64,000 bases of DNA, taken from Candidatus Cloacimonadaceae bacterium. GTDB lineage: Bacteria; Cloacimonadota; Cloacimonadia; Cloacimonadales; Cloacimonadaceae. Under the pieces are notes generated by a model. That model saw nothing but the letters and a program-made list of their open reading frames with translations. It did not search any database and was not told the DNA's origin. Position 1 is the stretch's first letter. Each line of letters opens with the position of its first letter. The DNA is taken from positions 1 to 64,000 of the forward strand of contig JAUYAR010000148.1 of the NCBI GenBank assembly GCA_030693415.1, in the 5' to 3' direction. Positions 9,309 to 53,103 of this stretch are shown piece by piece. Both the position numbers and the translations under genes were made by a program.

Positions 9309-12302
9309 CTATCTAAGCATTATTGCCTTTTGGTTGGCTGTATGTCCGTTTTGTTCCAAACGGAAGAAGTAAATGCCGGAGGAGACGGGTCTGTCTTTGT
9401 CGTCTTTGCCGTTCCAGGAAAGAATGTGTTTCCCTTCGGGGAGGATGCCGTCAAACATGGTCTTGACCCGTTGTCCTTTAATATTATAGATCTTCAGGCT
9501 GGCGGGTGCTTTTCCCTGAAGCTCAAAGCCGATTTTGCTATCGTTGCGGAAAGGATTGGGATTTATGGACATCCGGATCGGAACGCTTATCGTCTTTGAG
9601 CTTCGCCGCTGTGCCATAAATGCGTATCTCTGTTCGGAAAAACCAATGCTCAGGGATTTTGCTCCTTGGGAAGTTTTGGCTTGCATCCAGAGATAGTTAT
9701 TGGGATTGGGAATTGTTGCCAGAGAGGATAGATCGAGCCAATTCGTCCATTCTACCATACCGACGTTGTCAAAAAGAGCTTGAACGGTGCCGCCGGCGGA
9801 GTTTGTGATCGTGAGCAGGATGTCATAGAAATATGCGTTGGAAGGGAAAGTCAACTCTTTGTAAAACCATGTCCATTCAGTGGTTCCATTGATGTTCGCG
9901 GTGATGTTTTCGGTGCCGACGGTGCTTGTCGAGGTTCTGGTATTCCAATAGCGGATGATGATGTTGGCGTTTGTAGCGCTGCGGGTCTTGATCCATCCGT
10001 GCAGAGTGTATTTCTTGGTGTTGTCATAGCATTTCATGCGGCGCTTGAAGGTGGCGGTGGTGGTTTGTCCGTTTGAGGGGGCGAGCAAAGCGCTTCGGGC
10101 ACCGTCAAAGGCGTTCATAGTCTCAAAAGCGGGTATGCTCCACAGGGAACTGCCCTCATCTTCGAAATTGCCAAACCAGATCAATTCTTTACCGAGTCGG
10201 AGCTGTCCATCGCTCACGGGAGAGACATTGGTGACGCTGTTTATGCTTCCATAGCGTGGGAGTTTGAAGGGTTGAGTGGTGTTTCCGATCGTGCCGCTGG
10301 GTTGCAACTGCTTCTGAAAGTTATAGTTGGAAGTATTCGCAGTGAGATCGTCCATGTCCATCACCACCTTGGCGGAACAATCCTGATAATCCACGATGAG
10401 TTTGGTATTGAGCTCTGTGCTGCGCATTGCGAGGTAATCGAGAATATGCGCCGCGAGCACTCCGGTGGCTGGTTTGGGGATAAAATCGTCAATATACAGA
10501 GGACGGACGAGGAAGTTTGAGAAACCGGAATGATCCGCATCCGCGTAGAGAATCATCGAAGGCATAGTCTCCGGATAGGTGAGATCAAAGGCAAAGTTTC
10601 CCAGCGAATGCGCGATGAGTTTGCCGTTATAGACTTCCAATCCTTGGATGATGTGGGGATGATGCACAATCACGAGGTCGGCTCCGGAATCGACAGTCCA
10701 TCTGCGAATTTCCAGATCCCACAGGTGTGGAACGTCCGTGCGATAGTTGTAATCCTCATCCTCGAGGTCGCCCAGGAAGGGGTTGTTTTTGTCATAGCCG
10801 CTGCCCGGCGTCACGGAATACTCGCTGCCTCCGTGCATTTCCACGATCTTGAGATCGGCAAAGCCCTGCACGGCATTGATTTGCTGCATGATGTAATATG
10901 GGGTCATGTAAGCAAAACCAGGTTTGTTGTATCCCGCTTGCAAATAGGGCTGAGCGTTGTTATATTGTCCGGTGCGGTCGGAGCTTGCCAAAAACGCGAT
11001 GTTGAGCCCGTCTTTGTTTATGAAAACCGGTGCGTATGCCTCGTAGGAATTGGCTCCCGAACCGCTGTGGATGATGTTGTTTTGTTCAAGCAGACCGATC
11101 ATCTGTTGCATGCCCACGAGCCCATAATCGAGCGTGTGGTTGTTTGCCGTGCTGACCTTGTCGATGCCGGCATAGACCAATCCGCTGATGTTGGAAGGGC
11201 TGCCGCGATAGACCACGGATTTGGTAGGATGCGGAGTGCCAACGTTGCAAAGCACCACTTCGAGGTTGGCAACCGTGATATCCGCAGCATTGCCAATCAG
11301 ATGCACTGTAGGTTGAAAGATGGCGTTCACGCCCAGGGTGGGGATGATGCCTCCCGCTTGTTCATAGGCGCGGGCGAGCATCACGTCACCGATGAAGTTC
11401 ATCCGGATCGGAAGAGAGCTGATGCCATCATCCACTTCGACGAGGCATGAAGCGTAGCCCCATTTTCCGCCGCTGTCTCTCACCCTGAGGGTCGCCCTGT
11501 AGGGGTGGTTGTCCGCAACAGTGTAAGTGTGATAGGGGTTGGCGAGGTTGCTGGTCGTGCTGTCTCCAAAGTTCCATGCATAGGTGAATGTATCGCTGTC
11601 GGGGTCAATCACGAGGCTGCTAAATTGCACTCCGACGTTCCGGGTAGTTCCCAATCCGGCACTTTGGAAAGTAATTTGGTATGAGACGGTTATCTGCGGT
11701 GCCTGATTGATATCACTGGTGATGTTGAGGATGTTGTCAAAGAAAACCGAGCGGGAGCTAATTCCATCCAGATCATTGACATAGACGATCGAAGTGATCA
11801 GCGGGTAATATTCGAAAAAGGAAAACCAATCATCCGCGATCGGAAATAGATATTGATTCCAGGTGTTGTTTGAGAAAGCGCCTTGATAGACGGGTACCCA
11901 CTGTTCGAGATTGAGAATCCTCGTGCCGCCGATGGAATAGAAAAGCACATTAACGCCGTCTGAGAAACCGATGCCCTGGATATTGGCACCGCTCGAGGTC
12001 TTGGCGGCGATCTCGAAAACGGTGCTGCTACTTACCAGTATAGGAGTGATGAATTGTTGTTTCCAGGTGTTTCCAGTCAATGACAATGAGTAGGCGCTGT
12101 TGTTATATGTTCCTGTAGTAACGAGTTGCCATGCAGTGGGTTGGATGTCCTCATTCAGCCAGGAATAGAGCGTCACCGCCCCGCTTTCGAAATTTTCGAT
12201 CACGTCAAAGCGGCTTTGCGCAAAAAGTGTTCTGCAAAGTATAACCATTCCCAGGCAAAGCAATATCGACCGGGTGTTCTTGAAGAATCGGTGCGGTTTC
12301 AT
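9309..12302 (-). CDS. Secreted CapA-like metallophosphatase with PKD and FlgD-like sorting domain
   Basis: This protein of about 997 residues begins at the ATG at 12302, which has a CAGGAG site six bases upstream and starts a signal peptide (ILLCLGMVILCRTLFA). In order it shows a carbohydrate-binding-like beta domain (~40-190), a PKD domain (DPDSDTFTYAWNFGDST, ~210-290) and a CapA/PgsA-type metallophosphatase (~300-580). The last carries NFIGDVMLAR, STANNHTLDYG and VHHPHIIQGLEVYNGKLIAHSLGNFAFD. A second beta-sandwich (~690-850) precedes the last ~80 residues, a FlgD-like Ig fold (NPFRNDSKIGFEL to SSGIYFFRL), the usual C-terminal export signal of type IX secretion substrates. CapA relatives act in poly-gamma-glutamate capsule assembly; here the enzyme would sit outside the cell and its substrate is unknown. 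Confidence 0.85.
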   Translation of the reverse strand: MKPHRFFKNTRSILLCLGMVILCRTLFAQSRFDVIENFESGAVTLYSWLNEDIQPTAWQLVTTGTYNNSAYSLSLTGNTWKQQFITPILVSSSTVFEIAAKTSSGANIQGIGFSDGVNVLFYSIGGTRILNLEQWVPVYQGAFSNNTWNQYLFPIADDWFSFFEYYPLITSIVYVNDLDGISSRSVFFDNILNITSDINQAPQITVSYQITFQSAGLGTTRNVGVQFSSLVIDPDSDTFTYAWNFGDSTTSNLANPYHTYTVADNHPYRATLRVRDSGGKWGYASCLVEVDDGISSLPIRMNFIGDVMLARAYEQAGGIIPTLGVNAIFQPTVHLIGNAADITVANLEVVLCNVGTPHPTKSVVYRGSPSNISGLVYAGIDKVSTANNHTLDYGLVGMQQMIGLLEQNNIIHSGSGANSYEAYAPVFINKDGLNIAFLASSDRTGQYNNAQPYLQAGYNKPGFAYMTPYYIMQQINAVQGFADLKIVEMHGGSEYSVTPGSGYDKNNPFLGDLEDEDYNYRTDVPHLWDLEIRRWTVDSGADLVIVHHPHIIQGLEVYNGKLIAHSLGNFAFDLTYPETMPSMILYADADHSGFSNFLVRPLYIDDFIPKPATGVLAAHILDYLAMRSTELNTKLIVDYQDCSAKVVMDMDDLTANTSNYNFQKQLQPSGTIGNTTQPFKLPRYGSINSVTNVSPVSDGQLRLGKELIWFGNFEDEGSSLWSIPAFETMNAFDGARSALLAPSNGQTTTATFKRRMKCYDNTKKYTLHGWIKTRSATNANIIIRYWNTRTSTSTVGTENITANINGTTEWTWFYKELTFPSNAYFYDILLTITNSAGGTVQALFDNVGMVEWTNWLDLSSLATIPNPNNYLWMQAKTSQGAKSLSIGFSEQRYAFMAQRRSSKTISVPIRMSINPNPFRNDSKIGFELQGKAPASLKIYNIKGQRVKTMFDGILPEGKHILSWNGKDDKDRPVSSGIYFFRLEQNGHTANQKAIMLR

Positions 12303-12334
12303 GGCAACTCCTGTCAAGTTATTTAAAAGGGCAA

Positions 12335-12357
12335 GAGGCACCCGGATTGGGCACCTC
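12335..12357 (-). terminator. Weak terminator candidate after iorB
   Basis: A short interrupted stem (GAGG..CCC / GGG..CCTC with a 2x2 internal mismatch) lies between iorB and the CapA-like gene. On the minus strand it is followed by TTGCCCTTTT. The mismatch makes it weak, so transcription may run through into the CapA-like gene. Confidence 0.3.
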
Positions 12358-16014: not shown

Positions 16015-18786
16015 TCACTCAGTGATGTAAAATACTCCGGGATTGTCCACCAGACAGACCGCGCAGTTTCCGATCATGATGAATTCATAGATCGGCTCGT
16101 CTGTGAAAGCGGGAACGTGGACAAATTCCGTCAATGAGCCGTTTATATCTTTGAAGAAAAGACGATAATCCTGAGCTGGTACAAAGTCCGGAATGGGAAT
16201 ATACACAAAAGGCAGATCCGCATCTGATGGCAGATCGTAGAAATTGGGCGCGATCATCACTCCGGCGGGATTGCGAAACTCGATGCGATAGGCGTTCAGA
16301 GGAGTTATCGGAGCCTGGTAATCAGGGATTCTGATCATGTTTATCCGCGAAAACAGGGGTAGAGGGTTTCCGATCAGGTTTGCCGGCACATTCATCTGTG
16401 CCTGGTAGAGGGAAACGATGTGATCGCGGATGTTCGTGTTGATGACCGTGTTTACAAACAGATGGGGGTTGGAGTCAATCATAACTCTGTAAAAGCCATT
16501 TGAGGACAACAGGAAGGAAATATGTCCATCCGCGCTTGAAAAGTGCCAGGGATCTGGATCCACAGCTTGCGGATAGCTATAGATGCGATAATATTCTCCC
16601 TGCACTTCGGAAAAGAGCAGATTCTCGTTTCTGGCGCTTTGTTTAATGCGGATAAAGGGGTTATGATTTGCAAAGAACAGATCGGGAAATTCGATATAAA
16701 AGGAGTAAGCGTCACTGAGCGGGCTTAGCTGATATTGATTTGCCAGCACGGAATAGGTATCGGGCAGCCTTGTTTCGCGCTTGATCCTCAAAACCCGATT
16801 CTCGCCCAGGGGCTGCGATGAATCCAGATGAACTTCCCAGTCAAAATCGTCGAACTCCATCTTGGCAAACATACGCAGGTTTAAGATGGAAGGAGCGTCA
16901 AATCCCTGTCCCTGAATCAGATATCCTGGAAATGCCGGGGATATTTCCAGCTTCCCATTCACATATCTAAAGGTATTATGTTCCAGTGTGTTGGATACTC
17001 TGTAGCGGACAAAGCGAGGAAACTGGAAATCGGGAGCAAAATTCACGATGCTTTGGGTTCCGGACTGATGAGCATAACTTAAAAACAGGTTAGCAGGCAG
17101 GGAATTGCGCTCACGTTTCTCGGAAACGGCGGAGATTTTAAGCATGGAAACTGTGCTGCCCAAAGTATATGGTTGTCCGCTGAGCCATGGATGCTGCTGA
17201 GCGATCGGGGCTTTGTGCTCCAAAAGCACGCTGCTAAAAGCAGTGTCACTATCTTGCCAGGAAACAAAGCCCTTGGCATACTGGATAATGGCATTGGGTT
17301 TGAGGTGGGGGATAGAGGTGGCGATTGGGCTTTCGGATGCGTTTCCAAATAAATATGTTCCCGAAGAGTTAATCCCGCTATAGACGAAATCCGAGGAAAC
17401 ACTATAGTGCGATGCATCATAATCCGTGCCAAAAGACTTGTAATCCAGATGATCAGTCGTCTGGTTTCGGAAGATCCTAAACAACCGTGCCTGGCTGGCT
17501 AACGAATGCCGGTTGCGAAAGCCAAATTCGATCCAAGCGTCATTGGGGAGGCTTTCGATCGTGGTGCCGGATTGGGAAAATTCAAAGTGAAAAGCCTGCC
17601 ATGGATTCGCCAAAGCGAAGGGAGAACCGTTGAAATAATCATGGGTGATTGCTGAGACAGAAGGTAGCAGATTAACTTTGAGATTGAGATTTGGCATTGC
17701 CATATTCCTGAAATCGAACCAAATATCCTGCAGGAAGATGCTGCCAAAACTGCCGTCGAGAGGAATGTTCAGGCCTTGTTGATCGGAAAGCGGAGTGATC
17801 AGACAATACCTACCGCTTTTATTCAAAAAACTGATCAAGGTGCCATCCTGCACCAACCAGGTGTTTTCGCCTGAATCCCAACTGCTGATACCGGATGCGC
17901 CGACGCAGATCCATTGCTGATTGAAATTGCGTGATTCCGGCATGGAATAATGCACGATGACGGGATCATTTTCCGGGGCGGGGGCTTGGGTTTGCAGAGC
18001 AAGGACTTTTGTGTTCAGGGCAAAACCGGGGAAGAGAGTCTGTACAGCAGTAACATCTTCGCCACCGAGATTGTTTTCAATACTCAGATCAATCCTTTGC
18101 ACGGATGCCATATATGCTTGCGGAAACCATAAGCTGATCCGTTCATGATCATCAAAGATCAAAGCTTCGACCGCGCAATTGTTATCATCAATGCTCAAAT
18201 TCCCTGTTTCTCCGGGAATCTGGAGCTCGAGATCGCCATTGCCGCTGACGGCGAAAAAGCATCTTCCGGAGCCGTATGGATAGACCGCTACGCGCTCCGC
18301 GCTCAGTTGATATGTGTTCTTTACCAGATGGGCGTCTGCGAGATGCTCATTATTGATCAGATCGGTATAGATTGTGGCAAAATCGGGAATGGAATCTAAA
18401 ATGATCTCGCTGCCGCCTCTGAGGACAGAGATTCGGTAAGCATGAGTGAGGGCGGCGTTGGATTCCGCAAAGGCAAGGCTGTCTCTTTGCGTCAGAGCCG
18501 TCACTTTGCCAAACCGAAGCACATCTCCATACCAGAGAGCGTTATCGGCGATGCTTTCCTTTTTGATATAGAGAAAGCTGTTATCGTTGTCCGAGCGGAT
18601 CAAATGATCCATATAGATCTTGATCTCACTATTTTCTATATATAGTTTTGGATCGAGATTTGGAGGCAGTAGAGCATTTTCCCGCAAGTTGCAGGAAGCA
18701 AGTAGAGCAACCAATATCAGGCTGAGGAAGATCCGTGCCTTAGTATCGGAGAGAAATGTTAGTATGGATGAGATCGCTGTATTCAT
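16015..18786 (-). CDS. Large surface lipoprotein of unknown function
   Basis: This 923-residue protein begins with a signal sequence ending in a lipobox (ILVALLASC, Cys at residue 32), so it should be lipidated and anchored in a membrane. The rest is beta-rich, with many aromatic residues and no domain I recognise; pairs of cysteines at the end (IGNCAVCLVD) are notable. The ATG at 18786 overlaps the upstream TPR-barrel gene by 47 bases, so the true start may be a later non-ATG codon closer to the signal peptide core. It is the last gene of the PqqD/ATP-grasp operon. An outer-membrane surface or periplasmic partner of the barrel protein is plausible but unproven. Confidence 0.7.
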   Translation of the reverse strand: MNTAISSILTFLSDTKARIFLSLILVALLASCNLRENALLPPNLDPKLYIENSEIKIYMDHLIRSDNDNSFLYIKKESIADNALWYGDVLRFGKVTALTQRDSLAFAESNAALTHAYRISVLRGGSEIILDSIPDFATIYTDLINNEHLADAHLVKNTYQLSAERVAVYPYGSGRCFFAVSGNGDLELQIPGETGNLSIDDNNCAVEALIFDDHERISLWFPQAYMASVQRIDLSIENNLGGEDVTAVQTLFPGFALNTKVLALQTQAPAPENDPVIVHYSMPESRNFNQQWICVGASGISSWDSGENTWLVQDGTLISFLNKSGRYCLITPLSDQQGLNIPLDGSFGSIFLQDIWFDFRNMAMPNLNLKVNLLPSVSAITHDYFNGSPFALANPWQAFHFEFSQSGTTIESLPNDAWIEFGFRNRHSLASQARLFRIFRNQTTDHLDYKSFGTDYDASHYSVSSDFVYSGINSSGTYLFGNASESPIATSIPHLKPNAIIQYAKGFVSWQDSDTAFSSVLLEHKAPIAQQHPWLSGQPYTLGSTVSMLKISAVSEKRERNSLPANLFLSYAHQSGTQSIVNFAPDFQFPRFVRYRVSNTLEHNTFRYVNGKLEISPAFPGYLIQGQGFDAPSILNLRMFAKMEFDDFDWEVHLDSSQPLGENRVLRIKRETRLPDTYSVLANQYQLSPLSDAYSFYIEFPDLFFANHNPFIRIKQSARNENLLFSEVQGEYYRIYSYPQAVDPDPWHFSSADGHISFLLSSNGFYRVMIDSNPHLFVNTVINTNIRDHIVSLYQAQMNVPANLIGNPLPLFSRINMIRIPDYQAPITPLNAYRIEFRNPAGVMIAPNFYDLPSDADLPFVYIPIPDFVPAQDYRLFFKDINGSLTEFVHVPAFTDEPIYEFIMIGNCAVCLVDNPGVFYITE

Positions 18787-20008
18787 CGTTTTCTATTCCC
18801 AAATGATAGTATAAACCCAAGCTTAAACTCCGGCTCAAAGATAAGTATGCGCTCAGTCCGTAGATTTCGTTTGCTCCGTAAAAATCGTCGTAGATAATAC
18901 CCGAAGCATCGATCCACCATGAAGTTTCTCCCTTTATCCAATGCAAAGCCATTTTCAGAGCGGGAAAAATCTGGTATGCCGCACCGAGAGTATGTACGTA
19001 TTCCCGCAGGTCAGAATCCAGCGCTTCCAGATCATGATAGACTCCCGAGAATCCATAGCTAACACTCATCCTGCCATATCTGGCATTGAATCCCAGATCG
19101 CCTTGATAGGCGTTCATTCTTGAATAAGAGCTGAGATGGATCGCTACTATAGGTTTGATCAGCGCATCGCTCAGATACAGTTTTCCTGTAGCTGCCGCAA
19201 AAAAGCTCTTGCCTGGATAGACAGGCTCGTACTCTCCTATCAGAGTTGCCGCCCGAAATCCGAAATCGGCATATTTCGTTTGCTTTCCCAGTTTGAAGCT
19301 GCCCATATAGCGATAGTGGGCATCCTTGACATATTGATCATGATATGAGGCAAGCATCGCCCAGGTGCGTTTCTGCAAACCAAGCGAAGCGGAGAATCCA
19401 TAGTTGCCGGTTTCTTTGTAGCTAAAGCCGGTCGTCAAAAATGTATGCCAGCGTGTGGCTTCTCTCAATGGTGAGGAAGGGGTTTCAATATCTCCTGAAA
19501 CAGTGATCGCTCCGCCGTAATCGTTCACCGCCAGGTATGCCCATCCCAAACCGTCTCTTGCCAGTGCCTGAGAGAGCGAATCACTTTGATCACTGCTTAA
19601 AACCTTTTGGTAGGATAGCCTCGCTCTCAGCGGCTTGCCGCTTTGGAGTTCCGCCTGTCCTTTATAGACGCGGTACATGGAAATATGGGGATGATGGGCG
19701 ATCAGACTGTCCGCTTTGGCGAGTGCGTGTCGATACATTTTCAGAGAATTCAAAGCCCAGAGGATACCCTCGCCGGCGGTGCCGGAATTAGGATTTTCCC
19801 GTTCCACCCATTGATATTGCGCCAAAGCCATATCAGGTTTGGAATCCATCATGTAATAATAGGCAAGATTGATGCGCTCGCTTGCGTCCGCGGGATAGAC
19901 ATTCAGATAGCGGATTGTTTTTCCGATCAGATCGGGATAATCCATCTGCGCAGCACCAAGAATGCCAATGAGCAGAAGAAATGCAAGCAGGGCGTATATT
20001 TGTTTCAT
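18740..20008 (-). CDS. TPR protein with C-terminal outer-membrane barrel (YaiO-like layout)
   Basis: This 422-residue protein has a signal peptide (MKQIYALLAFLLLIGILGAAQ) and about four TPR-like helical pairs to residue ~175 (INLAYYYMMDSKPDMALAQYQWVERENPN is the clearest). About 240 residues of alternating beta strands follow and end in HTNISLRY, a terminal aromatic residue typical of barrels recognised by the BAM complex. The layout is like the YaiO family. It lies 23 bases downstream of another exported TPR gene and overlaps the lipoprotein gene. It probably forms the outer-membrane part of whatever this operon makes or exports. Confidence 0.75.
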   Translation of the reverse strand: MKQIYALLAFLLLIGILGAAQMDYPDLIGKTIRYLNVYPADASERINLAYYYMMDSKPDMALAQYQWVERENPNSGTAGEGILWALNSLKMYRHALAKADSLIAHHPHISMYRVYKGQAELQSGKPLRARLSYQKVLSSDQSDSLSQALARDGLGWAYLAVNDYGGAITVSGDIETPSSPLREATRWHTFLTTGFSYKETGNYGFSASLGLQKRTWAMLASYHDQYVKDAHYRYMGSFKLGKQTKYADFGFRAATLIGEYEPVYPGKSFFAAATGKLYLSDALIKPIVAIHLSSYSRMNAYQGDLGFNARYGRMSVSYGFSGVYHDLEALDSDLREYVHTLGAAYQIFPALKMALHWIKGETSWWIDASGIIYDDFYGANEIYGLSAYLSLSRSLSLGLYYHLGIENDEYSDLIHTNISLRY

Positions 20009-20031
20009 GGTTGGATTCTTGAGTGGTGGGT

Positions 20032-20631
20032 CTATTCCAAAATACCTTTGTAGATGGTGATTATAGCTGATTGGGGATAGTATTTTTTTAGCAGCCGGAA
20101 ATGTTCTTTAGCGCCGTTGATATCTCCGCTCAAATAAAGATTATTCACCAGATATCCACGGTTTTCCATATCCCAGGGATAGACTTGGAAGATATGCGTG
20201 TAGAATTGAGCGGCTTTGGCATAGTCTTTGATCATGTATGCCGCGTATGCTGCTTTGCCAAGCAGGGTGGTGTTTTCGGGGTGTAGCTTCACCTGCATCG
20301 ATCCCAGGGACAGCGCGTCTTTCCAGTTTCCCAACGCCAACTGGCAATTGATGATGCCGATATTGGCATCAATGTTTTCCCGCAGGCGGTTGGCGTTTTG
20401 ATAAGAGACTAACGCTTCGGCATATTTTCCCATTTGATACAGAAGCCAGGCACTGCGGATCTGGAAGAAGGGCTCGTTTTTATCTTGCTCTAAAAGCTCT
20501 TGCATGATCAGATGAGCGAGCACATAATTGCCATCAGTTTCTGCCTGGTAGGATTCGCTGATGCCGCGCAAAGCGAACAGGGGCATCGTTATCAGGGATA
20601 GTATGATCAATAGAAATATCGGTCTATTCAT
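20032..20631 (-). CDS. Exported TPR-repeat protein
   Basis: This 199-residue protein has an N-terminal signal peptide (MNRPIFLLIILSLITMPLFA) and four to five tetratricopeptide repeats filling the rest. Examples are GKYAEALVSYQNANRLRENIDANIG, GNWKDALSLGSMQVKLHPEN and KDYAKAAQFYTHIFQVYP. TPR stacks bind other proteins, so this is probably a periplasmic scaffold. It overlaps the end of the urea-transporter/M23 gene by eight bases and precedes the TPR-barrel gene, which places it between an inner-membrane and an outer-membrane component. Confidence 0.75.
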   Translation of the reverse strand: MNRPIFLLIILSLITMPLFALRGISESYQAETDGNYVLAHLIMQELLEQDKNEPFFQIRSAWLLYQMGKYAEALVSYQNANRLRENIDANIGIINCQLALGNWKDALSLGSMQVKLHPENTTLLGKAAYAAYMIKDYAKAAQFYTHIFQVYPWDMENRGYLVNNLYLSGDINGAKEHFRLLKKYYPQSAIITIYKGILE

Positions 20632-22834
20632 TGGATTCCTCCTCGGGTTGGATTCGGGTAGCGGTCACCAGTTCCTGATCTCCACGATGCAGAGATATTT
20701 CCCGGATTCCGTTTTTGCGGGTGATTGTCACTTTGGCGAGATACTTTTTGATCGTCATCCCCAAAACGCTCAAATCGGTAGTGCTAACCAGAAGGATATC
20801 TTTCTTTTCCACTACGATCCTGGATAGCGTGCGCACCCGGATCGGTTTGAAAAAGGGGATCAGAAACAGGGTCACATTTTTCCAGAAAGGACTCATCGTC
20901 ACGGACAAGCTGGGCTCGTCGGTCCAATTTAGATTGTGGTTCTCGATCCAGGGGATCCTTGACGAGGCAAGGGCAAAGGCGCGCAAGGCTCCCGGTTTCA
21001 GTTTGGTTAGATTCAATGCGTTAAAAATACCGTTGTAGATGGAATATTCAAGCTTTGCCCCGCTATCGGAGTGGATTCTATGGATTCCCATCAGATCGAG
21101 CTCAACCTTCCAGTTCTCCACAAATTTCCTGCCGTTGGTTTGGACATGGTAGCTTTGGCTTTGATCATAGCTCAGATGCAGGATATTCGCAAGCTCACGT
21201 TCCGCGACCAGCGGCGAGATGATGTCGCCCTCTTTGGGGATACCGCTGGTGATGAAAGTGTAATCGCCGATTTCATCCAGATATTTGTAATTGACGATAT
21301 GACAGAAGATGGATTTTGTTCCGGCATCGATTCCGCTTTGCGCCTGAAAGTGCAGATGCGGGATCGGAGACCTGCCGGAATTTCCCACCAAACCGAGCTT
21401 TTCACCTTGTTTGATATAATCGCCCTCGGCAAGTTTCACGGAGCCTTCCTTCAAGTGCGCATAGAGGCTGTAGAATCCGTAGCCATGGGAGATAGTTACG
21501 TAATTTCCCCAATTATCCTGTGTATTCGTGATACCGATTGGGTTGTCAGGGATTTTGTTCACGACTTTTACCACATATCCTGCTGCCGCTGCATAGACGT
21601 TTTTGCCGAAAGCGTAATAGTCCTTGACGCTATCGGGAACATCTGAGTATTTCTTGCCGAAGCGGTCTTCAATCTCAAAATCCCAAGCGAACGCCCATTC
21701 CTTTTTATGAGTATGTGTCCCGTTGTGCCCTTGGGTCACAAGCCATTCACCAGTCACGGGAAGCTGCATTTGGGGGATGCCGGTACTGGAGAAACGTTTG
21801 TATCTTGAAAGATACGCGTCCAGCGCCTTTTCGGGGTGCAGTATGCCAAGGTCGTTGATGATCGGAGATCGTGGTAAAGCTCTCAAACGGAGCGCGAAGA
21901 TCACAATCAAGACGACGATATTGAGCGGGAAGGCAAAGATCGGGATCAATAGCACATCTCCCCTGGCGGGCATGTAATCCGGAAAATAGTACTTGCCGGA
22001 AAGAACAAATGCCAGGGCAAAGCCAATCACTGTAGCGATGGCAGCAGTCAGATAAGCAGATTTACTGGGAATCAGAAACACCGAGCCGATGGTCAGGCTA
22101 ATCAGGATCAGGTTAAATCCCGGGAAAAACATCCCATAAGTACTGCCGATGTTGACAAAACTGAGCAGGAAATAGCAGATTCCCCATCCCATCAATGAAA
22201 GCATGAAGGCGATCCTCGAGATGAAAAGCAGGATGAGCGTAACCGCAATCCCGGCAAGGATATCCGGCACGAACACAATGCTCCCCATGCTGAGTAAATA
22301 GTCCCTCCAAAACCAGATCAGATCAGGCTTCGCGCTCAGGATTATCGGCTTGGCAAAACCTGTTCCGGTGAAATCGCCGCTTCGAACCAAATAATACCAA
22401 AAGACGGTCGCAGCTATGGAAAAAGCAAGACTCATCGATGGCAATTTGAACCAACTCAACGTGAAATGAGTGAGCACCGCGTAGAGAAAAAGCGTTGATA
22501 GCGATGCCACAAGCAACAGTGCCGCATACTGTTCCGGCTGCGAGGCGATTCCACTCAAGGGATAGTAGTATCCGATCGCTAGGGCGATCAGCAGGCTGTT
22601 GAAAGAATTGATTCCGCTGCCGCTGTCCCAACCTTCAAACCCAACCGCCCGATTTGCGAGTAGGGCTATCACAAGCCCCGCCAAGCCGGAGAGACCCACA
22701 ATGGGGGAGAGCATGGTGAGCAGCATCAGGATCAAGCCCAGCCAGAGATTGTCCGAAAACAATATCGTCGCGTAGCTGTGCGGGATCGCTCTCAGAAAAG
22801 AAAAACCACGGGTCATAACGGCTGATTTGGTCAC
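20624..22834 (-). CDS. Urea-transporter-like membrane domain fused to M23 metallopeptidase
   Basis: This 736-residue protein has two clear parts. Residues 1-~315 are about ten membrane helices with urea-transporter family features (LFSDNLWLGLILMLLTMLSP near the start, INSFNSLLIALAIGYYY in the first repeat, FFPGFNLILISLTIG in the second). Residues ~360-520 form an M23/LytM fold: THKKEWAFAWDF gives His376 and Asp385, GNYVTISHGYGFYSLYAHL the core strands, GNSGRSPIPHLHF the His493-x-His495 pair, so the zinc ligands look intact. The last ~215 residues are beta-rich and unassigned. M23 enzymes cut peptidoglycan cross-bridges or other glycine-containing peptides, outside the inner membrane. It overlaps both neighbours by four and eight bases. 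Confidence 0.85.
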   Translation of the reverse strand: MTKSAVMTRGFSFLRAIPHSYATILFSDNLWLGLILMLLTMLSPIVGLSGLAGLVIALLANRAVGFEGWDSGSGINSFNSLLIALAIGYYYPLSGIASQPEQYAALLLVASLSTLFLYAVLTHFTLSWFKLPSMSLAFSIAATVFWYYLVRSGDFTGTGFAKPIILSAKPDLIWFWRDYLLSMGSIVFVPDILAGIAVTLILLFISRIAFMLSLMGWGICYFLLSFVNIGSTYGMFFPGFNLILISLTIGSVFLIPSKSAYLTAAIATVIGFALAFVLSGKYYFPDYMPARGDVLLIPIFAFPLNIVVLIVIFALRLRALPRSPIINDLGILHPEKALDAYLSRYKRFSSTGIPQMQLPVTGEWLVTQGHNGTHTHKKEWAFAWDFEIEDRFGKKYSDVPDSVKDYYAFGKNVYAAAAGYVVKVVNKIPDNPIGITNTQDNWGNYVTISHGYGFYSLYAHLKEGSVKLAEGDYIKQGEKLGLVGNSGRSPIPHLHFQAQSGIDAGTKSIFCHIVNYKYLDEIGDYTFITSGIPKEGDIISPLVAERELANILHLSYDQSQSYHVQTNGRKFVENWKVELDLMGIHRIHSDSGAKLEYSIYNGIFNALNLTKLKPGALRAFALASSRIPWIENHNLNWTDEPSLSVTMSPFWKNVTLFLIPFFKPIRVRTLSRIVVEKKDILLVSTTDLSVLGMTIKKYLAKVTITRKNGIREISLHRGDQELVTATRIQPEEESNE

Positions 22835-24180
22835 AGTTTCTTCAAGTGCTCCGGGATTCTTTCACGGTCGTTGATGTCGGAAAGTTCTTCTTTCTCTCGG
22901 ATCAGCTCATGTTGTCCGGTTTCACCGATCAAGACCACAGGCGGTCGAAACTCGATAAATTGCATCCACTGCGTGTTGTTGTAGGCGCCGACGGGATGGA
23001 TCAAAACATGCTCACCGGTATAGAGATCGGGGAAGGGTAGCGCGGGACGGATCACGTCAATATTCATGCACAGTGGTCCATAGAAAACAGTATTTTGATA
23101 TGCTCCGGAAAATGGCCGCGTGGGGATGACTTTGAGTTTGTACCACCAAGCGGTGATCAAGGTATTCACTCCGGCGTCGAGGATGATTGCCCGCTCTCCG
23201 GTGGGGAGGTTTTTCCTGCCGATCACGCCACTGATCATTGTTCCAGCTTCGTCGATCAAAGCCCTGCCAGTTTCCAAAATGAGGGTGGGCAGATGCTCGC
23301 TCACAAACGGCGATTCGTTGAAGGCGTTGCCGATTGCGGCGGCATATTGATCATAGGAGGGAGAAGAAAGCTCGCCGGGCGTATATTGTTCGTGGAGGGT
23401 GTTTTGAGAAGCGAATCCACCGCCCAGATCGATGTATGTGACCACGATGCCCAGCTCTTTTTCCACTTGTTGGGCGAGAGCTAATAGCGCTTTGGCAGCA
23501 TAGTAATAGGCATTCGCGTCGATGATAAAAGTGCCGATGTGGGTGTGCAAGCCTTTGAGGTTCATCATCCTGCCGGTGACCAAACGGTGAATGGCGCGCA
23601 TCGCTTCTCCGTTTTCATAATTGAAGCCAAAGCGCGACCACAGGGGATAGATACCGGTGTCCATATTGACTCGGATCGCCACATCCGGGATGGTGTCCAA
23701 TTCTTCGGCGATCCGTTCGATTAGGTAGAGCTCATCCAAATGGTCGATGTGGATCAGAGCGCTATCTTTGATTGCCGTCACCAGTTCTTCGCGGCGTTTT
23801 CCCGGTCCGTTGAAAATGATGGATTTGCCCTCGACTCCGAGCTTTCTTGCCATCTGATATTCCATGCCAGAGACGACTTCCGCGCGGGCTCCTTCCTGAT
23901 GGAAAATGCTGCAAACTGCTGCCAGATAGTTGGTTTTGTAGCTCCACGCCATCTCGACCTTGGAATAGTGCATCTGCATCGTTTCATGGAGGCGGCGATA
24001 GTTTTTACGCATCCGGCTTTCGGATATCACGAGCGCGGGGGAACCATAAGTCGCCACGAGTTCTTTGATTCCGATGCCGTCGATGTTGTCCTGATGGCGA
24101 ACGACACTTTTGGCGCCGTATTTATTCATGTTTCCGTTATAATTGCGTTCGATATAAGGTGCTGTGTATGCCTTTTTCAA
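22831..24180 (-). CDS. PLP-dependent decarboxylase (Orn/DAP/Arg decarboxylase 2, LysA-like fold)
   Basis: This 449-residue type III PLP enzyme has the cofactor lysine in EMAWSYKTNYL (residue ~82), the phosphate-binding glycine loop in TYIDLGGGFASQ, LILETGRALIDEAG, and the second-subunit catalytic cysteine in YGPLCMNIDV. Family members decarboxylate ornithine, lysine, diaminopimelate, arginine or carboxy-polyamines. The loop that reads substrate is not standard for diaminopimelate decarboxylase, and the gene is flanked by an ATP-grasp ligase and the UT-M23 fusion with four-base overlaps on both sides. I infer that it acts on a specialised amino acid or amino-acyl product rather than in lysine synthesis; a housekeeping lysA remains possible. 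Confidence 0.85.
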   Translation of the reverse strand: MKKAYTAPYIERNYNGNMNKYGAKSVVRHQDNIDGIGIKELVATYGSPALVISESRMRKNYRRLHETMQMHYSKVEMAWSYKTNYLAAVCSIFHQEGARAEVVSGMEYQMARKLGVEGKSIIFNGPGKRREELVTAIKDSALIHIDHLDELYLIERIAEELDTIPDVAIRVNMDTGIYPLWSRFGFNYENGEAMRAIHRLVTGRMMNLKGLHTHIGTFIIDANAYYYAAKALLALAQQVEKELGIVVTYIDLGGGFASQNTLHEQYTPGELSSPSYDQYAAAIGNAFNESPFVSEHLPTLILETGRALIDEAGTMISGVIGRKNLPTGERAIILDAGVNTLITAWWYKLKVIPTRPFSGAYQNTVFYGPLCMNIDVIRPALPFPDLYTGEHVLIHPVGAYNNTQWMQFIEFRPPVVLIGETGQHELIREKEELSDINDRERIPEHLKKL

Positions 24181-25250
24181 TTTGTAACTCCTATAATTAG
24201 CTCACTCTTGGCGGCGATCTCTCCCATGGTGGAAATGTCCGCGATGAGGTCTTCGGCGTGGCGGATGAACATGGTGCCGGGCTTGCAAACCGGAAGTGGA
24301 TCAACTTCCTTGCCCAAAGCAAGTAAAACGACCGCCGCGGGTTGGTTTTGCCCTGCGCCTTCCGCAAGACGAACCCAAGCGGGAAAACGCGGATTAATTT
24401 CGATCAGATAGTAGATCCCGTCTTGTCCTTTGATCGCTTCGAGTTCGCAGGGCCCGCGCCATTTGAGGATGCTGATCACTTTCTCTGCAAATGCGTCGAG
24501 ACCGGCATTTTTGACCACGACTCCACCGAAACCCTTGCCTTTGTCCGTGATGACCAGTTTTTTCTGGGGAACCATACCCAGCATGCCGCCCTTGCCGTCA
24601 CCAACGATCACAATGTTAAATTCCTCGCCGGGAACGATTTTTTGAAATATGATGGGTAAGCCCCAGCGGGATTGGATATCATAATAGTGTTTTAGAGCTT
24701 CCTCGGGATTGCGAGCTTTGAAAGCCTCGTAATATCTGCCCTTGACCATGAGCGGATAGGGTATCTGATCTGATATTTGGTAGATCTGAGAGGGATCGCT
24801 CACGAGTATCGTCTGAGGCACAAAGATGCCCTTGGGTGGAAAGAATCCGGCGAGCGCGGTCTTGTCTCTGAGCAAAAAACCTCTTTCGTCCGTGATATAG
24901 CAATGGACACCACGGTTTTTCAGCTCCTGCTCCAGACGGATGAAGAGGATGATCTCCGCGTCGAGGGTGGGGATGATCACATCGATTTTTGTCTTGCTCA
25001 GGATATAATCGATGCGGCTCATAAAAGCTTCCGCACCGGTGGAAGGATATGGCATCTGGTAGATCTCGTCCGCGAGACCTTCCAGATAGATTCCGGATTC
25101 CATCGAATCATAGACCAGACCGATGATCTTGCCCTTGAATCCGGCATTTCGGATACTGCGGATAACAGGAACCCCGGGTTGGGGATTGTCGCCGGTTTTG
25201 AGACCGCTGACGGCGATCACGACATCGAGCGTGGAAAGATCAGGATTCAT
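24177..25250 (-). CDS. ATP-grasp ligase (carbamoyl-phosphate-synthase-like / PylC-like)
   Basis: This 357-residue protein has an N-terminal Rossmann-like preATP-grasp fold (VVIAVSGLKTGDNPQPGVPVI, DVIIPTLDAE) and an ATP-grasp fold. The latter shows PYPLMVKGRYYEA, FQKIVPGEEFNIVIV and CELEAIKGQDGIYYLIEINPRFPAW, where the E...N.R residues bind Mg-ATP. Such enzymes activate a carboxylate as an acylphosphate and join it to an amine. It begins nine bases after the PqqD-like gene and overlaps the decarboxylase by four. That context suggests amide-bond formation on a peptide or amino acid held by the PqqD-like protein. It is not carB, which would be twice as long. Confidence 0.88.
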   Translation of the reverse strand: MNPDLSTLDVVIAVSGLKTGDNPQPGVPVIRSIRNAGFKGKIIGLVYDSMESGIYLEGLADEIYQMPYPSTGAEAFMSRIDYILSKTKIDVIIPTLDAEIILFIRLEQELKNRGVHCYITDERGFLLRDKTALAGFFPPKGIFVPQTILVSDPSQIYQISDQIPYPLMVKGRYYEAFKARNPEEALKHYYDIQSRWGLPIIFQKIVPGEEFNIVIVGDGKGGMLGMVPQKKLVITDKGKGFGGVVVKNAGLDAFAEKVISILKWRGPCELEAIKGQDGIYYLIEINPRFPAWVRLAEGAGQNQPAAVVLLALGKEVDPLPVCKPGTMFIRHAEDLIADISTMGEIAAKSELIIGVTN

Positions 25251-25259
25251 CGCAGCGCC

Positions 25260-25508
25260 CTAAAAATCGATCAGATCGAGGGATTCGAGCATCAGGACAT
25301 AGTGTTCGAAATCGCTGTTGAAATGATCTTCGCTGATTTCATACTCATCAAGGATCTTTGTTCTTATCTCACTTTTCCCCAATCCCTGGCTGAGGTATTT
25401 CAATATCTTGAGCCCGGTCTCGTTGACCGTGTAGCTGCTGCCGCTTCCGGGATCGAATACAAAGCCATTGTCGTTCATTGCAAGGTCTTTTAGTTTGTCG
25501 GTATTCAT
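25260..25508 (-). CDS. PqqD-like protein (RiPP recognition element fold)
   Basis: This 82-residue protein matches the PqqD pattern: a beta hairpin (GFVFDPGSGSSYTVNETG), then helices with LKILKYLSQGLGKSEIRTKILDEYEISEDHFNSDF and a final FEHYVLMLESLDLIDF. PqqD-type domains bind leader peptides and hand them to modifying enzymes. It is the first gene of the operon, 136 bases after hydE, so a promoter should lie in that gap; the best pair I see on the minus strand (TTGAGA and TATATT, 20 bases apart) is poor. No small precursor-peptide frame is visible between 25509 and 25644. Substrate unknown. Confidence 0.85.
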   Translation of the reverse strand: MNTDKLKDLAMNDNGFVFDPGSGSSYTVNETGLKILKYLSQGLGKSEIRTKILDEYEISEDHFNSDFEHYVLMLESLDLIDF

Positions 25509-25644: not shown

Positions 25645-26688
25645 TTATTTGTTGCGGATGAAGTGTTTGGAATCGCCCCACTGATTATATCCGACAGTCT
25701 CGCCGATGCTGTGAATGCGGTTTTCGAGGCAACATCTGCACTGGGTTGCGTTTTCGTCCATGCAGGGTTTTCCATCATAGAGTTGATAGCCTTCGCGGTA
25801 TTTGGTATCCGTGAGATTGGGCATGATGATGTTTGCCCCGGCGAGCAGCCCCAGCTCCCTGCCGGTGGGCATCAAAGCCTGTAAAGCGGTGGTGGACGCG
25901 ATATTGACGTCTTTGAGAGCGATGCGGCAGACGGCGATCATTTTCAGGGCGTTTTGAAGAGCTTTGTCCTGATCGTATTGTTCCGAAAGATGTCCCAACG
26001 GTGTGTCATGATGAGGAATGAAGGGTCCCATGCCCAGCATGTCGATATCCTCATCATAGAAGAAAAGAATATCGTCGGCAAGGTCTTCCACCGTCTGTCC
26101 CGGCAAGCCGATCATCACTCCCGTGCCTACTTGATAACCGACTTTTTTGAGAACACGGAGACAATTCACCCGATGCTCAAAAGAATGATCCGCCGGGTGG
26201 AGGGTCTTGTATAACACCGGATTACTGGTTTCGATCCTCAACAGATAGCGGTGTGCCCCGGCATCAAACCATCTCTGATAAACCTCTTCGCTCTGTTCGC
26301 CAAGGGAAAGCGTGATTCCCAATTCTGAATTGGATAGCTCTTTAATGGAAGACACAAGTTCGGTGATAAAATCCGTGTACCATCTGTCCTCACGTTCGCC
26401 GGATTGGATGACGATGGAACCATAGCCCTGTTCCCAACACCACTTTGCCTCGGCAAGGACTTCCTCTTTATCAATGAGATAACGTTCCACTTTGTCGTTG
26501 CCGGCACGGATTCCGCAATAATAGCAGTCTTTGGCGCAGATGTTGCTCAGCTCGATCAAGCCTCTATAATAGACGTTCGTGCCGATGTTTTCTTTCTTGA
26601 TTTCATAGGCGCGGCGATACAAAGCATTGATCTCTTCGGGGTCTGTGATGTTCAGAAGCCTGATCAGTTCATCGCGATCGGGTCTCAT
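25645..26688 (-). CDS. hydE: [FeFe]-hydrogenase maturation radical SAM enzyme HydE
   Basis: This 347-residue radical SAM protein has the CxxxCxxC motif as NICAKDCYYCGIR (Cys51, 55, 58). It has the HydE-type segments QSGEREDRWYTDFI, GQTVEDLADDILF, MGPFIPHHDTPL and NIIMPNLTD. It keeps the C-terminal cysteines of the auxiliary site (CMDENATQCRCC). HydE works with HydF and HydG to build the H-cluster; neither is in this window. The ATG at 26688, giving an ATGA overlap with the Sel1 gene, is preferred over the ATG at 26709. PylB is a related family, but the C-terminal cysteines favour HydE. Confidence 0.88.
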   Translation of the reverse strand: MRPDRDELIRLLNITDPEEINALYRRAYEIKKENIGTNVYYRGLIELSNICAKDCYYCGIRAGNDKVERYLIDKEEVLAEAKWCWEQGYGSIVIQSGEREDRWYTDFITELVSSIKELSNSELGITLSLGEQSEEVYQRWFDAGAHRYLLRIETSNPVLYKTLHPADHSFEHRVNCLRVLKKVGYQVGTGVMIGLPGQTVEDLADDILFFYDEDIDMLGMGPFIPHHDTPLGHLSEQYDQDKALQNALKMIAVCRIALKDVNIASTTALQALMPTGRELGLLAGANIIMPNLTDTKYREGYQLYDGKPCMDENATQCRCCLENRIHSIGETVGYNQWGDSKHFIRNK

Positions 26689-27560
26689 TTGCTCACTCTT
26701 TTTGCCCAATCGGTATGCAGGGTTTCAGCCTTATTCAATTGCTCCGCGGTGAGTTTTATCGCCAGTTCGTCACGATGTTTCTCAAAGAGCGCCAGATCTT
26801 CAGTATTGCAATTATGAGCAGCAAGGCGAAAGAGAGCGTATGCTTGCACGACGTCTTTGGAAACGCCATGTCCAAGATTGTAGCAAACTCCGAGGTTGTG
26901 TGCAGCGGATAAATTACCTTGTTCGGCTGCCATTCGATACCATTTCACAGCTTCCGAGAGGTTCTTTTTCACGCCCTCGCCATTGTATAAACTGTCTCCC
27001 AGATAGAGCTGCGCCATTGCGTGTCCCTGTTGTGCAGCTTTTTGATACCATTTGACTGCTTCGCTTTGATTCACTTTTGTACCGGATCCCCAATAATAGC
27101 AATTGGCAAGGCAAAACTGCCCCTCGGGATTACCCAGGGTGGCGGCTCGGGAATACCATTGAAACGCTTCTTGCTCATTCACAGGGATCCCGTCTCCGGT
27201 ATTCAGACAATTTGCCAGGTTGAGCTGCGCTTCAATATGATCTTGTCCCGCTGCGAGGCGATACCAATGCGCTGCTTCCGCGCGATTGAGGGTGATTCCC
27301 AAACCGTAGAATGCGCAAACGCCAAGGAAAAATTGTGCCTCAGGACTACCGTTGGCTGCCGCCTGACGATACCACTTCAGCGCTTCGGATCCATCCTGCA
27401 ACACACCGTTGCCGTTGCTGTAATTTTGCGCCATCAGAAACTGTGCCAAACTGTCCCCCTGTTTGGCACGATTCAGCAGGTCGATCAGCTCTTTGGGGTT
27501 GGCGCGCAATACCGGGATAAAGCACACCCCGACTATTAGTAGTATATGCAATTTATTCAC
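26685..27560 (-). CDS. Exported Sel1-repeat protein
   Basis: This 291-residue protein has a signal peptide (MNKLHILLIVGVCFIPVLRA) followed by six consecutive Sel1-like repeats of 36 residues. Each has the form AQxxLAxxYxxGxGVxxNxxEAxKWYRxAAxxG, from about residue 37 to 250, and a short helical tail closes it. Sel1/TPR-like stacks are protein-binding scaffolds, here in the periplasm or outer membrane. It is the first gene of a two-gene unit with hydE (four-base overlap), an odd pairing for a cytoplasmic radical SAM enzyme, so the linkage is probably transcriptional only. Confidence 0.85.
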   Translation of the reverse strand: MNKLHILLIVGVCFIPVLRANPKELIDLLNRAKQGDSLAQFLMAQNYSNGNGVLQDGSEALKWYRQAAANGSPEAQFFLGVCAFYGLGITLNRAEAAHWYRLAAGQDHIEAQLNLANCLNTGDGIPVNEQEAFQWYSRAATLGNPEGQFCLANCYYWGSGTKVNQSEAVKWYQKAAQQGHAMAQLYLGDSLYNGEGVKKNLSEAVKWYRMAAEQGNLSAAHNLGVCYNLGHGVSKDVVQAYALFRLAAHNCNTEDLALFEKHRDELAIKLTAEQLNKAETLHTDWAKRVSK

Positions 27561-35221: not shown

Positions 35222-35237
35222 AATAAATCTCCTAGAG

Positions 35238-36704
35238 TTACTTGAGAAAGCCAAGGCTTGGAGTGTTAAGCCCCAGTGAAATAAACAGGTAATTTTTATC
35301 TAATGCAAAATTGCTAATTGGAAATGCGGAATTGTCCGTATATAAGGCATTATCACCATTTTGAAACCACCCGCCCTCACTGACAAATTGACTACGTAGC
35401 CCTACTGCTAAAAATACTCCTCGATCAAACCTTTTATATCCAGAAACAAAAGTACATGACACTTCTGTAAATACCTGGGTCCAGTCATCGAATCGATATT
35501 CATCAGGGTTTGAATAATACTCATATCGATTATTACTAACTATGTAACGATACAAGGGCTTTTGCCATGAAACACCAGTTTTGGCCTGAATACCGATTGA
35601 TGATTTACGTGATAAAGCAGCTCCGGTAAGGCCAACATTTGCGCTAATCCAGTTAAACATAAATCCGTGAGAGTCAATGCCGTGAATACGAGTTTGTAAA
35701 TACGATACATCCTCAAACACATTTATGCCCACTGATGCGTAAGACTGTGTTCTGGCATTTAGTGGTATCATGTATTTAATCTCGATTGCGGTGGCGGATA
35801 ATGAGCTAGTTACCGTACCAGATCTCGTGCCGTAATATTGCCTATAATATACATTGTCGACTAGGGTGTAATGGAATCTGGAAAAATGAGTTTCGCTATC
35901 AGCATCAAAAGGATTCTCGTCAGTATTACTATCCGCAAACTTATTACTCCTTGTCGAAGATGCTATCACAGCCTCATCTTTCTTTAGTTTATCCTTGCTC
36001 TTTTCCTTCTCTTTCACAGTGATCTCATTTTTACTTTTTTTATCCTTTTTTTTGGATTCCCCGTCACGAGAATAGAGGCTTATTTGAATCTCCTCACTTC
36101 TTCCTGTTATTACAGCATCGACTAAACGAATTGATACTGGCATAGACGTGCATATGGACCTAACATCTGAGATCGATTCTTGCAATACTCCCACGGATTT
36201 TTGAACATTGGCAAGAACTTTGGGGATTTTGAGCACACTGAGCTTTTTTGCCTCAGATGGCAGCGAAGTTGAGTTACTAATGAGCTGTTGAATCTCTGAG
36301 CCTATATACTCAACATCCGTACTTAAATCCTGCATTTCTCGTTTGCATTCAGATAGGTGGCCTTGTAACACTTCAATATTATCCAAAGAGAGAATTGATA
36401 TAAATCCTGATGTGTTAAGTGTTAAATTGCCCTCTGTTTTTGAATATCTTGCATAAGCACTGTCCGCAGCTGCGGAGTAAGACAATCCGCTAATGCACCG
36501 ATTATAATCTTCCGGGTCATTCATGATCCACACCAAGTATGAGTTTACCCGATTGATCTTCTGTTTGATAGTAGAGACCCTTTCTCCAACACTCTCGACA
36601 TTGCCAAAAAATTCATTAATCTTTTGATTCCCGGTGTCCTCCACTGCAAAACATACTCCAGAAAACAAAACAATTACCAAAGATAGCGCTGCAACTCTAT
36701 GCAT
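35238..36704 (-). CDS. Exported coiled-coil protein with C-terminal outer-membrane-type barrel
   Basis: This 488-residue protein has a signal peptide (MHRVAALSLVIVLFSGVCFA). The ATG at 36704 is preferred because a GGAGG site lies eight bases upstream. Residues ~25-210 are helical with heptad character (VESVGERVSTIKQKINRV, LQGHLSECKREMQDLSTDVEYIG). A very basic, lysine-rich linker follows (KKKDKKSKNEITVKEKEKSKDKLKKDE). The last ~230 residues are beta strands rich in Tyr, Ser and Gly. The family is not recognised. With the adjacent CHB_HEX lipoprotein, 16 bases away, it may form a surface pair in which this protein anchors the other. Confidence 0.65.
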   Translation of the reverse strand: MHRVAALSLVIVLFSGVCFAVEDTGNQKINEFFGNVESVGERVSTIKQKINRVNSYLVWIMNDPEDYNRCISGLSYSAAADSAYARYSKTEGNLTLNTSGFISILSLDNIEVLQGHLSECKREMQDLSTDVEYIGSEIQQLISNSTSLPSEAKKLSVLKIPKVLANVQKSVGVLQESISDVRSICTSMPVSIRLVDAVITGRSEEIQISLYSRDGESKKKDKKSKNEITVKEKEKSKDKLKKDEAVIASSTRSNKFADSNTDENPFDADSETHFSRFHYTLVDNVYYRQYYGTRSGTVTSSLSATAIEIKYMIPLNARTQSYASVGINVFEDVSYLQTRIHGIDSHGFMFNWISANVGLTGAALSRKSSIGIQAKTGVSWQKPLYRYIVSNNRYEYYSNPDEYRFDDWTQVFTEVSCTFVSGYKRFDRGVFLAVGLRSQFVSEGGWFQNGDNALYTDNSAFPISNFALDKNYLFISLGLNTPSLGFLK

Positions 36705-52057: not shown

Positions 52058-52067
52058 GCAGAGCCCC

Positions 52068-53090: not shown

Positions 53091-53103
53091 TTTGAATTCT
53101 CCC

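Follow-up and report, generated by a model that had tools for sequence, protein, structure and literature searches.

The window analysed here, that is, the whole stretch of 64,000 nt of Candidatus Cloacimonadaceae bacterium (contig JAUYAR010000148.1, positions 1 to 64,000, assembly GCA_030693415.1), contains an operon of seven open reading frames (ORFs), all located on the minus strand and spanning 16015-25508. In the order of transcription, the first gene encodes a PqqD-like protein of 82 amino acids (aa; 25260..25508), followed by an ATP-grasp ligase of 357 aa (24177..25250), an alanine-racemase-fold pyridoxal phosphate (PLP) decarboxylase of 449 aa that is FigC/FslC-like (22831..24180), a 736-aa fusion of a urea transporter (UT) channel, an M23 zinc hydrolase and a C-terminal beta domain (UT-M23, 20624..22834), an exported TPR protein of 199 aa (20032..20631), a 422-aa protein composed of a TPR part and an outer-membrane beta-barrel (18740..20008), and a large lipoprotein of 923 aa with the lipobox LLASC (16015..18786). 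The junctions are +9, -4, -4, -8, +23 and -47 bases, exactly matching the layout described in the first-pass annotation of this DNA (one strand, gaps of 9 and 23 bases, overlaps of 4, 4, 8 and 47 bases), whose domain assignments (PqqD, ATP-grasp, fold-III PLP decarboxylase, UT and M23, TPR) are also upheld by Pfam and NCBIfam. Scans for promoters and terminators in the operon yielded little above the shuffled background.

The core of the system consists of six components: the PqqD-like protein, the ATP-grasp ligase, the PLP decarboxylase, UT-M23, the periplasmic TPR protein and the outer-membrane barrel. In whole-genome searches UT-M23 was found in 36/125 Cloacimonadota genomes (26/71 of the good ones), and around these loci the gene order is the same while the flanks vary. 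When the decarboxylase alignment was scanned against 84,980 species genomes, at least 584 relatives were confirmed, and the best 80 of them were kept; outside Cloacimonadota, these 80 come from Bacteroidota (Bacteroidales, Cyclobacteriaceae, Pedobacter), Ignavibacteria/Chlorobi, Myxococcota, Deltaproteobacteria and Riflebacteria, together with single metagenome-assembled genomes (MAGs) labelled Melainabacteria and Persephonella, which may be binning errors. Of 78 decarboxylase loci, 73 have the ligase clustered on the same stretch, 72 have UT-M23 and 62 have the TPR protein, and PqqD was detected in 58, plus some overlooked by the ORF caller. The commonest order is PqqD, ligase, decarboxylase and UT-M23, then barrel and TPR protein in either order; downstream of the set the genes are unconserved and their strand is near-random.

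The strictness of this association was assessed with an even sample of 297 genomes from the phylum to which a Pedobacter genome belongs, in which UT-M23, the decarboxylase and the ligase each match the identical 27 genomes at adjacent coordinates. Each of 12 chosen genomes (12/12) has exactly one UT-M23, which in five of them does not lie beside the decarboxylase on the fetched contig. The distance matrices of ligase, decarboxylase and UT-M23 correlate among themselves with r of 0.93-0.95, and those of the TPR protein and the barrel correlate with these three at r of 0.90-0.93 and 0.87-0.92, respectively. The permutation maxima are below 0.45, and no more than 0.33 for the comparisons among ligase, decarboxylase, UT-M23 and TPR protein. 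Since the order is kept amid different flanks and the same 27/297 genomes carry the genes, it is strongly supported that they form one co-inherited system, as the first-pass annotation had proposed; the scattering in related genomes that it had named as grounds for giving up the idea is the opposite of what is seen. Its inclusion of the large lipoprotein stands only in part: the gene does belong to this operon and has a lipobox, but the protein matches no Pfam or NCBIfam family, its homologues occur in Cloacimonadota loci only, and the lipoprotein is accessory, outside the conserved core.

The decarboxylase starts with TTG, preceded by a GGAG motif, and matches the fold-III family at 2e-32. 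Its best solved relative is FigC, the N-citrylornithine decarboxylase (302 bits by profile), followed by diaminopimelate decarboxylase (DAPDC, 213 bits) and BtrK (about 158 bits), with ornithine decarboxylase (ODC) the weakest; against the FigC/FslC family model it reaches 226 bits, where the cut-off is 500. K82, H214, C371 and D375 are invariant in the alignment, and GPxCM..D and GAYN are common to the decarboxylase and FigC. According to the profile alignment, however, H357 and R387 of FigC, which were identified by docking as citrate contacts (PMC7857480), are replaced by I374 and Q404. According to PMC7857480, one clade unites FigC, SbnH, AcsE, MccE, BtrK, DAPDC and D-ODC, and conjugated amino acids are the substrates of the first five; the nearness of the operon enzyme to these conjugate-acting members is a matter of match score, and DAPDC belongs to the same clade. 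Because the citrate contacts are lost and the catalytic residues are kept, the enzyme is likely to act on a non-citryl conjugate.

The same enzyme bears on a more ordinary explanation, namely that lysine or polyamine enzymes have come together here in a chance cluster. A housekeeping role is imaginable in so far as no lysA match in the genome itself exceeds the curated cut-off. But the active-site motif is CMNxD (here CMNID, invariant in 39 sequences) instead of the CESxD of LysA, the score against lysA is 200.8 bits (200.2 in the genome search) where 297.9 would be needed, one separate ODC-type enzyme is present in the genome (L140), and the gene is strictly co-inherited with envelope genes across phyla, all of which makes a chance cluster scarcely credible. 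Judged by its sequence, the decarboxylase is not a lysine-pathway enzyme; by score it is closer to FigC/FslC than to diaminopimelate decarboxylase, the reverse of the lysine-pathway grouping that had been named beforehand as evidence against a joint system.

The ATP-grasp ligase belongs to the CPS-like/PRK12767 group and has a PylC-like N-terminal part. It matches ATPgrasp_Ter (2.9e-7) and the CPS-like family NF009405 (1.8e-23), and its profile finds CarB and the CPS-like structure 2pn1 best, with the PylC N-terminal domain and ATPgrasp_Ter weakly matched. The ATP-grasp residues E269, E271 and E284-x-N286-P-R288 are invariant in 45 sequences, and the catalytic residues are intact. The PqqD-like protein matches Pfam PqqD at 4.8e-8 and TIGR04353 with 33.8 bits, just below the 35-bit cut-off. 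Its gene is found in nearly all loci, including several in which the ORF caller had overlooked it, and the protein is likely a peptide- or carrier-binding adaptor.

Since PqqD proteins are named as peptide chaperones in lasso-peptide and HPr-rel-A systems (by their family names), the operon could be thought to make a ribosomally synthesized and post-translationally modified peptide (RiPP), in which PqqD would recognise an unlinked precursor, the ligase and the decarboxylase would alter its terminal residue, the M23 domain would cut off the leader, a task that suits a cytoplasmic protease domain, and the envelope part would export the product. The small frames around the core were compared in about 105 loci (about 1.5 kb upstream and 3.5 kb downstream), and no conserved precursor-peptide ORF was found, in line with the earlier remark that no precursor gene is visible; the only recurring small frames are PqqD itself, where the ORF caller had missed it, and a frame antisense to PqqD. 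Moreover, the ligase is CPS/PylC-like and not RimK-like as in graspetides, and a fold-III decarboxylase requires a free alpha-amino acid group and not a peptide C-terminus. A RiPP-type route accordingly has a rather low probability in our estimate.

UT-M23 matches the UT family at 1.5e-32 and Peptidase_M23 at 5.1e-19, and its AlphaFold2 model has a mean predicted local distance difference test (pLDDT) score of 88.9. Three parts are distinguished: the UT channel domain (residues 15-314, 21893..22792, by alignment to 3k3f), the M23/LytM-type zinc hydrolase domain (about residues 355-505, 21320..21772), and a C-terminal beta-rich domain (residues 506-736, 20627..21319, from the AlphaFold2 secondary structure), which matches no Pfam or NCBIfam family. 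With Foldseek, the model retrieves the Desulfovibrio urea transporter dvUT (TMt 0.80-0.83) as well as LytM domains, and the 50 matches listed for the full model are essentially UT and LytM. The pore positions were taken from the filter residues listed in PMC4357013, transferred via the 3k3f alignment and counted over 93 sequences. F27, F80, N81, L84, F190, F243, N244 and L247 of dvUT are kept in 84-93/93 of them; T130 is replaced by S in 87/93, and Q24 is Q in 56/93 and T in 28/93. In the numbering of UT-M23, the conserved pore residues are F26, F78, N79, L82, S135, F188, N241 and L244. The outer-site residue E187 is mostly A or S, and T294 is mostly S or A. The model and these counts therefore give strong support to a UT fold whose pore lining is conserved for the most part.

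The zinc ligands and catalytic His of the M23 domain (H376, D385, H460, H493 and H495) are present in 93/93 sequences. M23 proteins are usually exported wall hydrolases, and together with the intact ligands this would suit a periplasmic M23 domain that cleaves peptidoglycan or trims an exported product. The topology argues otherwise. The two halves of a UT are inverted (PMC4357013), so that the N- and C-termini lie on one side; the density of K/R is higher on this side in 93/93 sequences, also when the C-terminal tail is excluded; and the M23 domain comes directly after the last UT helix, with no further strongly hydrophobic stretch in between. Taken together, the shared side of the termini, the charge of the loops and the lack of an extra hydrophobic stretch indicate that the M23 domain is most likely on the cytoplasmic side, and the outward M23 domain trimming the product outside, which the first-pass annotation had assumed, is contradicted both by UT homology, which places the C-terminus inside, and by the positive-inside rule. 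A wall hydrolase is thus highly improbable.

The TPR protein has an N-terminal signal sequence, and a signal sequence is likewise present in the TPR-barrel. The barrel was modelled by AlphaFold2 with a pLDDT of 93.6, in which TPR helices (24-171) are followed by 14 beta strands (188-421), as expected from the initial description of a TPR-barrel, and the Foldseek matches are BcsC (2.6e-11), OmpG (1.3e-10, TMt 0.68) and PelB (6.7e-7), with AlgE further down. According to this model it is a porin of 14 strands that carries a TPR scaffold, and it would pass a polymer or a small solute. The TPR part is absent from the barrels of several lineages, many of which resemble simple porins; in two Cloacimonadota families (f5 and f9), for example, a barrel without TPR part is followed by a separate TPR protein.

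From these folds, the secretion of a polymer or oligomer could be proposed, that is, an amide-linked or amine-decorated chain would leave through the TPR scaffold and the TPR-barrel, as in the case of cellulose, poly-N-acetylglucosamine (PNAG) or Pel, and UT-M23 would serve as the inner-membrane element and chain-cutting hydrolase. The combined TPR and barrel fold is nearest to BcsC and also resembles PelB and AlgE, a separate periplasmic TPR protein is present, and the operon of one Cloacimonadota family (f2) has two additional genes between UT-M23 and the TPR gene, one for an MBOAT acyltransferase (DltB/AlgI type) and one for a DUF1574-like protein (L049:4933-7280 and L050:6229-8577). However, this pair is confined to the one family, neither a glycosyltransferase synthase gene nor a PilZ gene is a recurrent member of the conserved set, the pores of solved UTs are urea-sized with a lining that is conserved here, and many barrels are simple-porin-like and lack the TPR part, so that polymer secretion is unlikely, though the fold matches lend it some weight.

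The opposite direction has also been considered, in which the barrel and the TPR protein would take in a small amide or urea, the UT would import it and the enzymes would use it. UT channels are passive and bidirectional, and solved UT relatives conduct urea. On the other side, the best match of the TPR and barrel fold is an exporter, nitrogen-assimilation genes are not what the commonest neighbouring families consist of, and urease and the system do not go together: of 10 clear ureases in the 297 genomes, only one is in the 27 carriers, and urea import for urease was rejected as unlikely on this account. Uptake and assimilation as a whole would be an improbable function.

The reading that we tentatively prefer, with less than even confidence, is a vectorial pathway in which a small amine- or amide-type product is made in the cytoplasm and passed across both membranes; the cytoplasmic amino-acid-modifying route and the envelope export part of the first-pass annotation are both retained in it, the former because a conjugate-then-decarboxylate scheme fits. 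First, the ATP-grasp ligase would find its carrier or substrate bound to the PqqD-like protein, and might couple an amino acid, by the side chain, with a carrier or an acyl partner. The FigC-like decarboxylase would then take off the alpha-carboxylate that is left free in the conjugate. At the cytoplasmic end of the UT pore, to which the fusion anchors it, the M23 zinc domain would hydrolyse the conjugate to release the small product, which would go out via the UT channel, be passed on by the TPR protein and exit through the TPR-barrel porin. The order of these steps, the chemical identity of the product, the direction of flow and the role of PqqD are what we infer. It is possible, though we hold it more doubtful, that an envelope-spanning metabolite system exists over many phyla, in which PqqD holds the carrier and a cytoplasmic M23 domain, joined to a urea-type channel, cleaves the decarboxylated amino-acid product off this carrier straight into the channel, that is, a substrate channelling from biosynthesis to efflux.

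Several points weigh against this proposal. No substrate, carrier or precursor gene was identified near the core in the roughly 105 loci, and in a few genomes UT-M23 is found apart from the enzymes. To our knowledge, there is little precedent for a cytoplasmic M23 domain. As UT channels are passive, import can also be envisaged, and with E187 and T294 changed the solute need not be urea-like. Known UT pores have the width of urea, 2-3 Å (PMC10541013), which argues for a small product, while the TPR-barrel argues for a larger one; a urea-width pore would hardly require a dedicated outer-membrane porin and a TPR scaffold, which suit a larger product. If the proposal is true, one protein here unites a channel of the urea type with a LytM-fold zinc domain on the cytoplasmic side, and the operon leads to secreted bacterial amines or amides of a new kind. 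At least 584 stretches in the scanned species genomes encode a relative of the decarboxylase, yet no paper describing the gene set was found in the open-licence literature, and the earlier statement that no known system has this set agrees with that search. The full operon is carried by cultured Pedobacter, Cyclobacterium and Algoriphagus species, so that laboratory testing is possible.

Some genes adjoin or interrupt the core in particular lineages. Directly upstream of the operon lies a HydE-type radical SAM maturase (25645-26709, 369 bits, above the cut-off), which was not accepted as a core gene, since it adjoins the operon in only a few related Cloacimonadota loci. The MBOAT pair and an eIF2B-like gene were likewise rejected as core, being inserts in a few lineages only; the latter, which looks eIF2B/MtnA-like by eye, stands between the decarboxylase and UT-M23 in three Bacteroidales/Chlorobiota MAGs (L067:11358-12305, L100:11437-12270 and L102:7538-8368). 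HMA-AraC regulators occur upstream in about 15/63 cases, and DUF2202 and RND genes in a few; the regulator lies at or near the 5′ side of PqqD (L086:7915-8520 and about 17 similar Bacteroidales loci), in some cases with copper-type transport genes beside it. A possible link to metals, which these genes suggest as a lead, is restricted to Bacteroidales-type genomes. Three genomes that are distant from one another encode, upstream of the core, homologous secreted proteins of about 150 aa with an SLYP motif and, in two of them, a Cys-rich end (L066:8068-8511, L144:8106-8564 and L143:10772-11266). In Ignavibacteria, the gene directly upstream of PqqD encodes a conserved protein of about 280 aa that is secreted and whose end resembles a sorting tail (L088:7858-8688 and about 10 loci); these sorting-tail proteins (c8) were rejected as part of the system because they are lineage-specific.

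Elsewhere in the window, 9309-12341 encodes a 1010-aa protein with a PGA_cap (CapA-type) domain, a PKD domain and a FlgD-Ig tail, and 33014-35254, within an A+T-rich stretch at 32-38 kb, encodes a 746-aa protein with seven CHB_HEX_C_1/Fn3-associated repeats. At 37549-39567 lies a gene for a urocanate hydratase (415 bits) that is extended by about 100 residues at its N-terminus, and an RND efflux set composed of permease, periplasmic adaptor and TolC-type outer-membrane protein occupies 48980-54483.

Compared with known systems, the operon shares single features with each of several. A small PqqD-family protein is common to it and the HPr-rel-A system (33.8 bits against the 35-bit cut-off); for HprK-related kinase A there is no TIGR04352 match in the own genome, which is a weak test, as no control genome matched either. 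With exopolysaccharide exporters (BcsC, PgaA, PelB and AlgK/AlgE) it has in common a TPR domain, an outer-membrane barrel and a TPR partner, but the barrel here has 14 strands and is OmpG-sized, and no polysaccharide synthase is in the operon. The fold and most of the pore-lining residues are those of urea transporters (SLC14/dvUT), whereas here the channel is part of a fusion with M23 and a beta domain, E187 is replaced and there is no link to urease. In the butirosin cassette (BtrI carrier, BtrJ, BtrK), an ATP-grasp ligase, BtrJ, is paired as here with a fold-III decarboxylase, BtrK, which acts on a carrier-bound amino acid; by contrast, no acyl-carrier gene was found in the conserved set, and the decarboxylase is nearer to FigC than to BtrK. 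From the Francisella rhizoferrin route (FslA/FigA and FslC/FigC) the operon differs in that the ligase there is an NRPS-independent siderophore (NIS) synthetase and here an ATP-grasp enzyme (no NIS synthetase, IucA/IucC, PF04183, was found in the own genome, while the control genomes matched), in that the FigC citrate contacts are lost here, and in that channel, barrel and PqqD have no counterpart there. In both, however, an amino acid would be ligated first and the conjugate then decarboxylated by a PLP enzyme, and the FigC of that route is the nearest solved relative of the operon decarboxylase.

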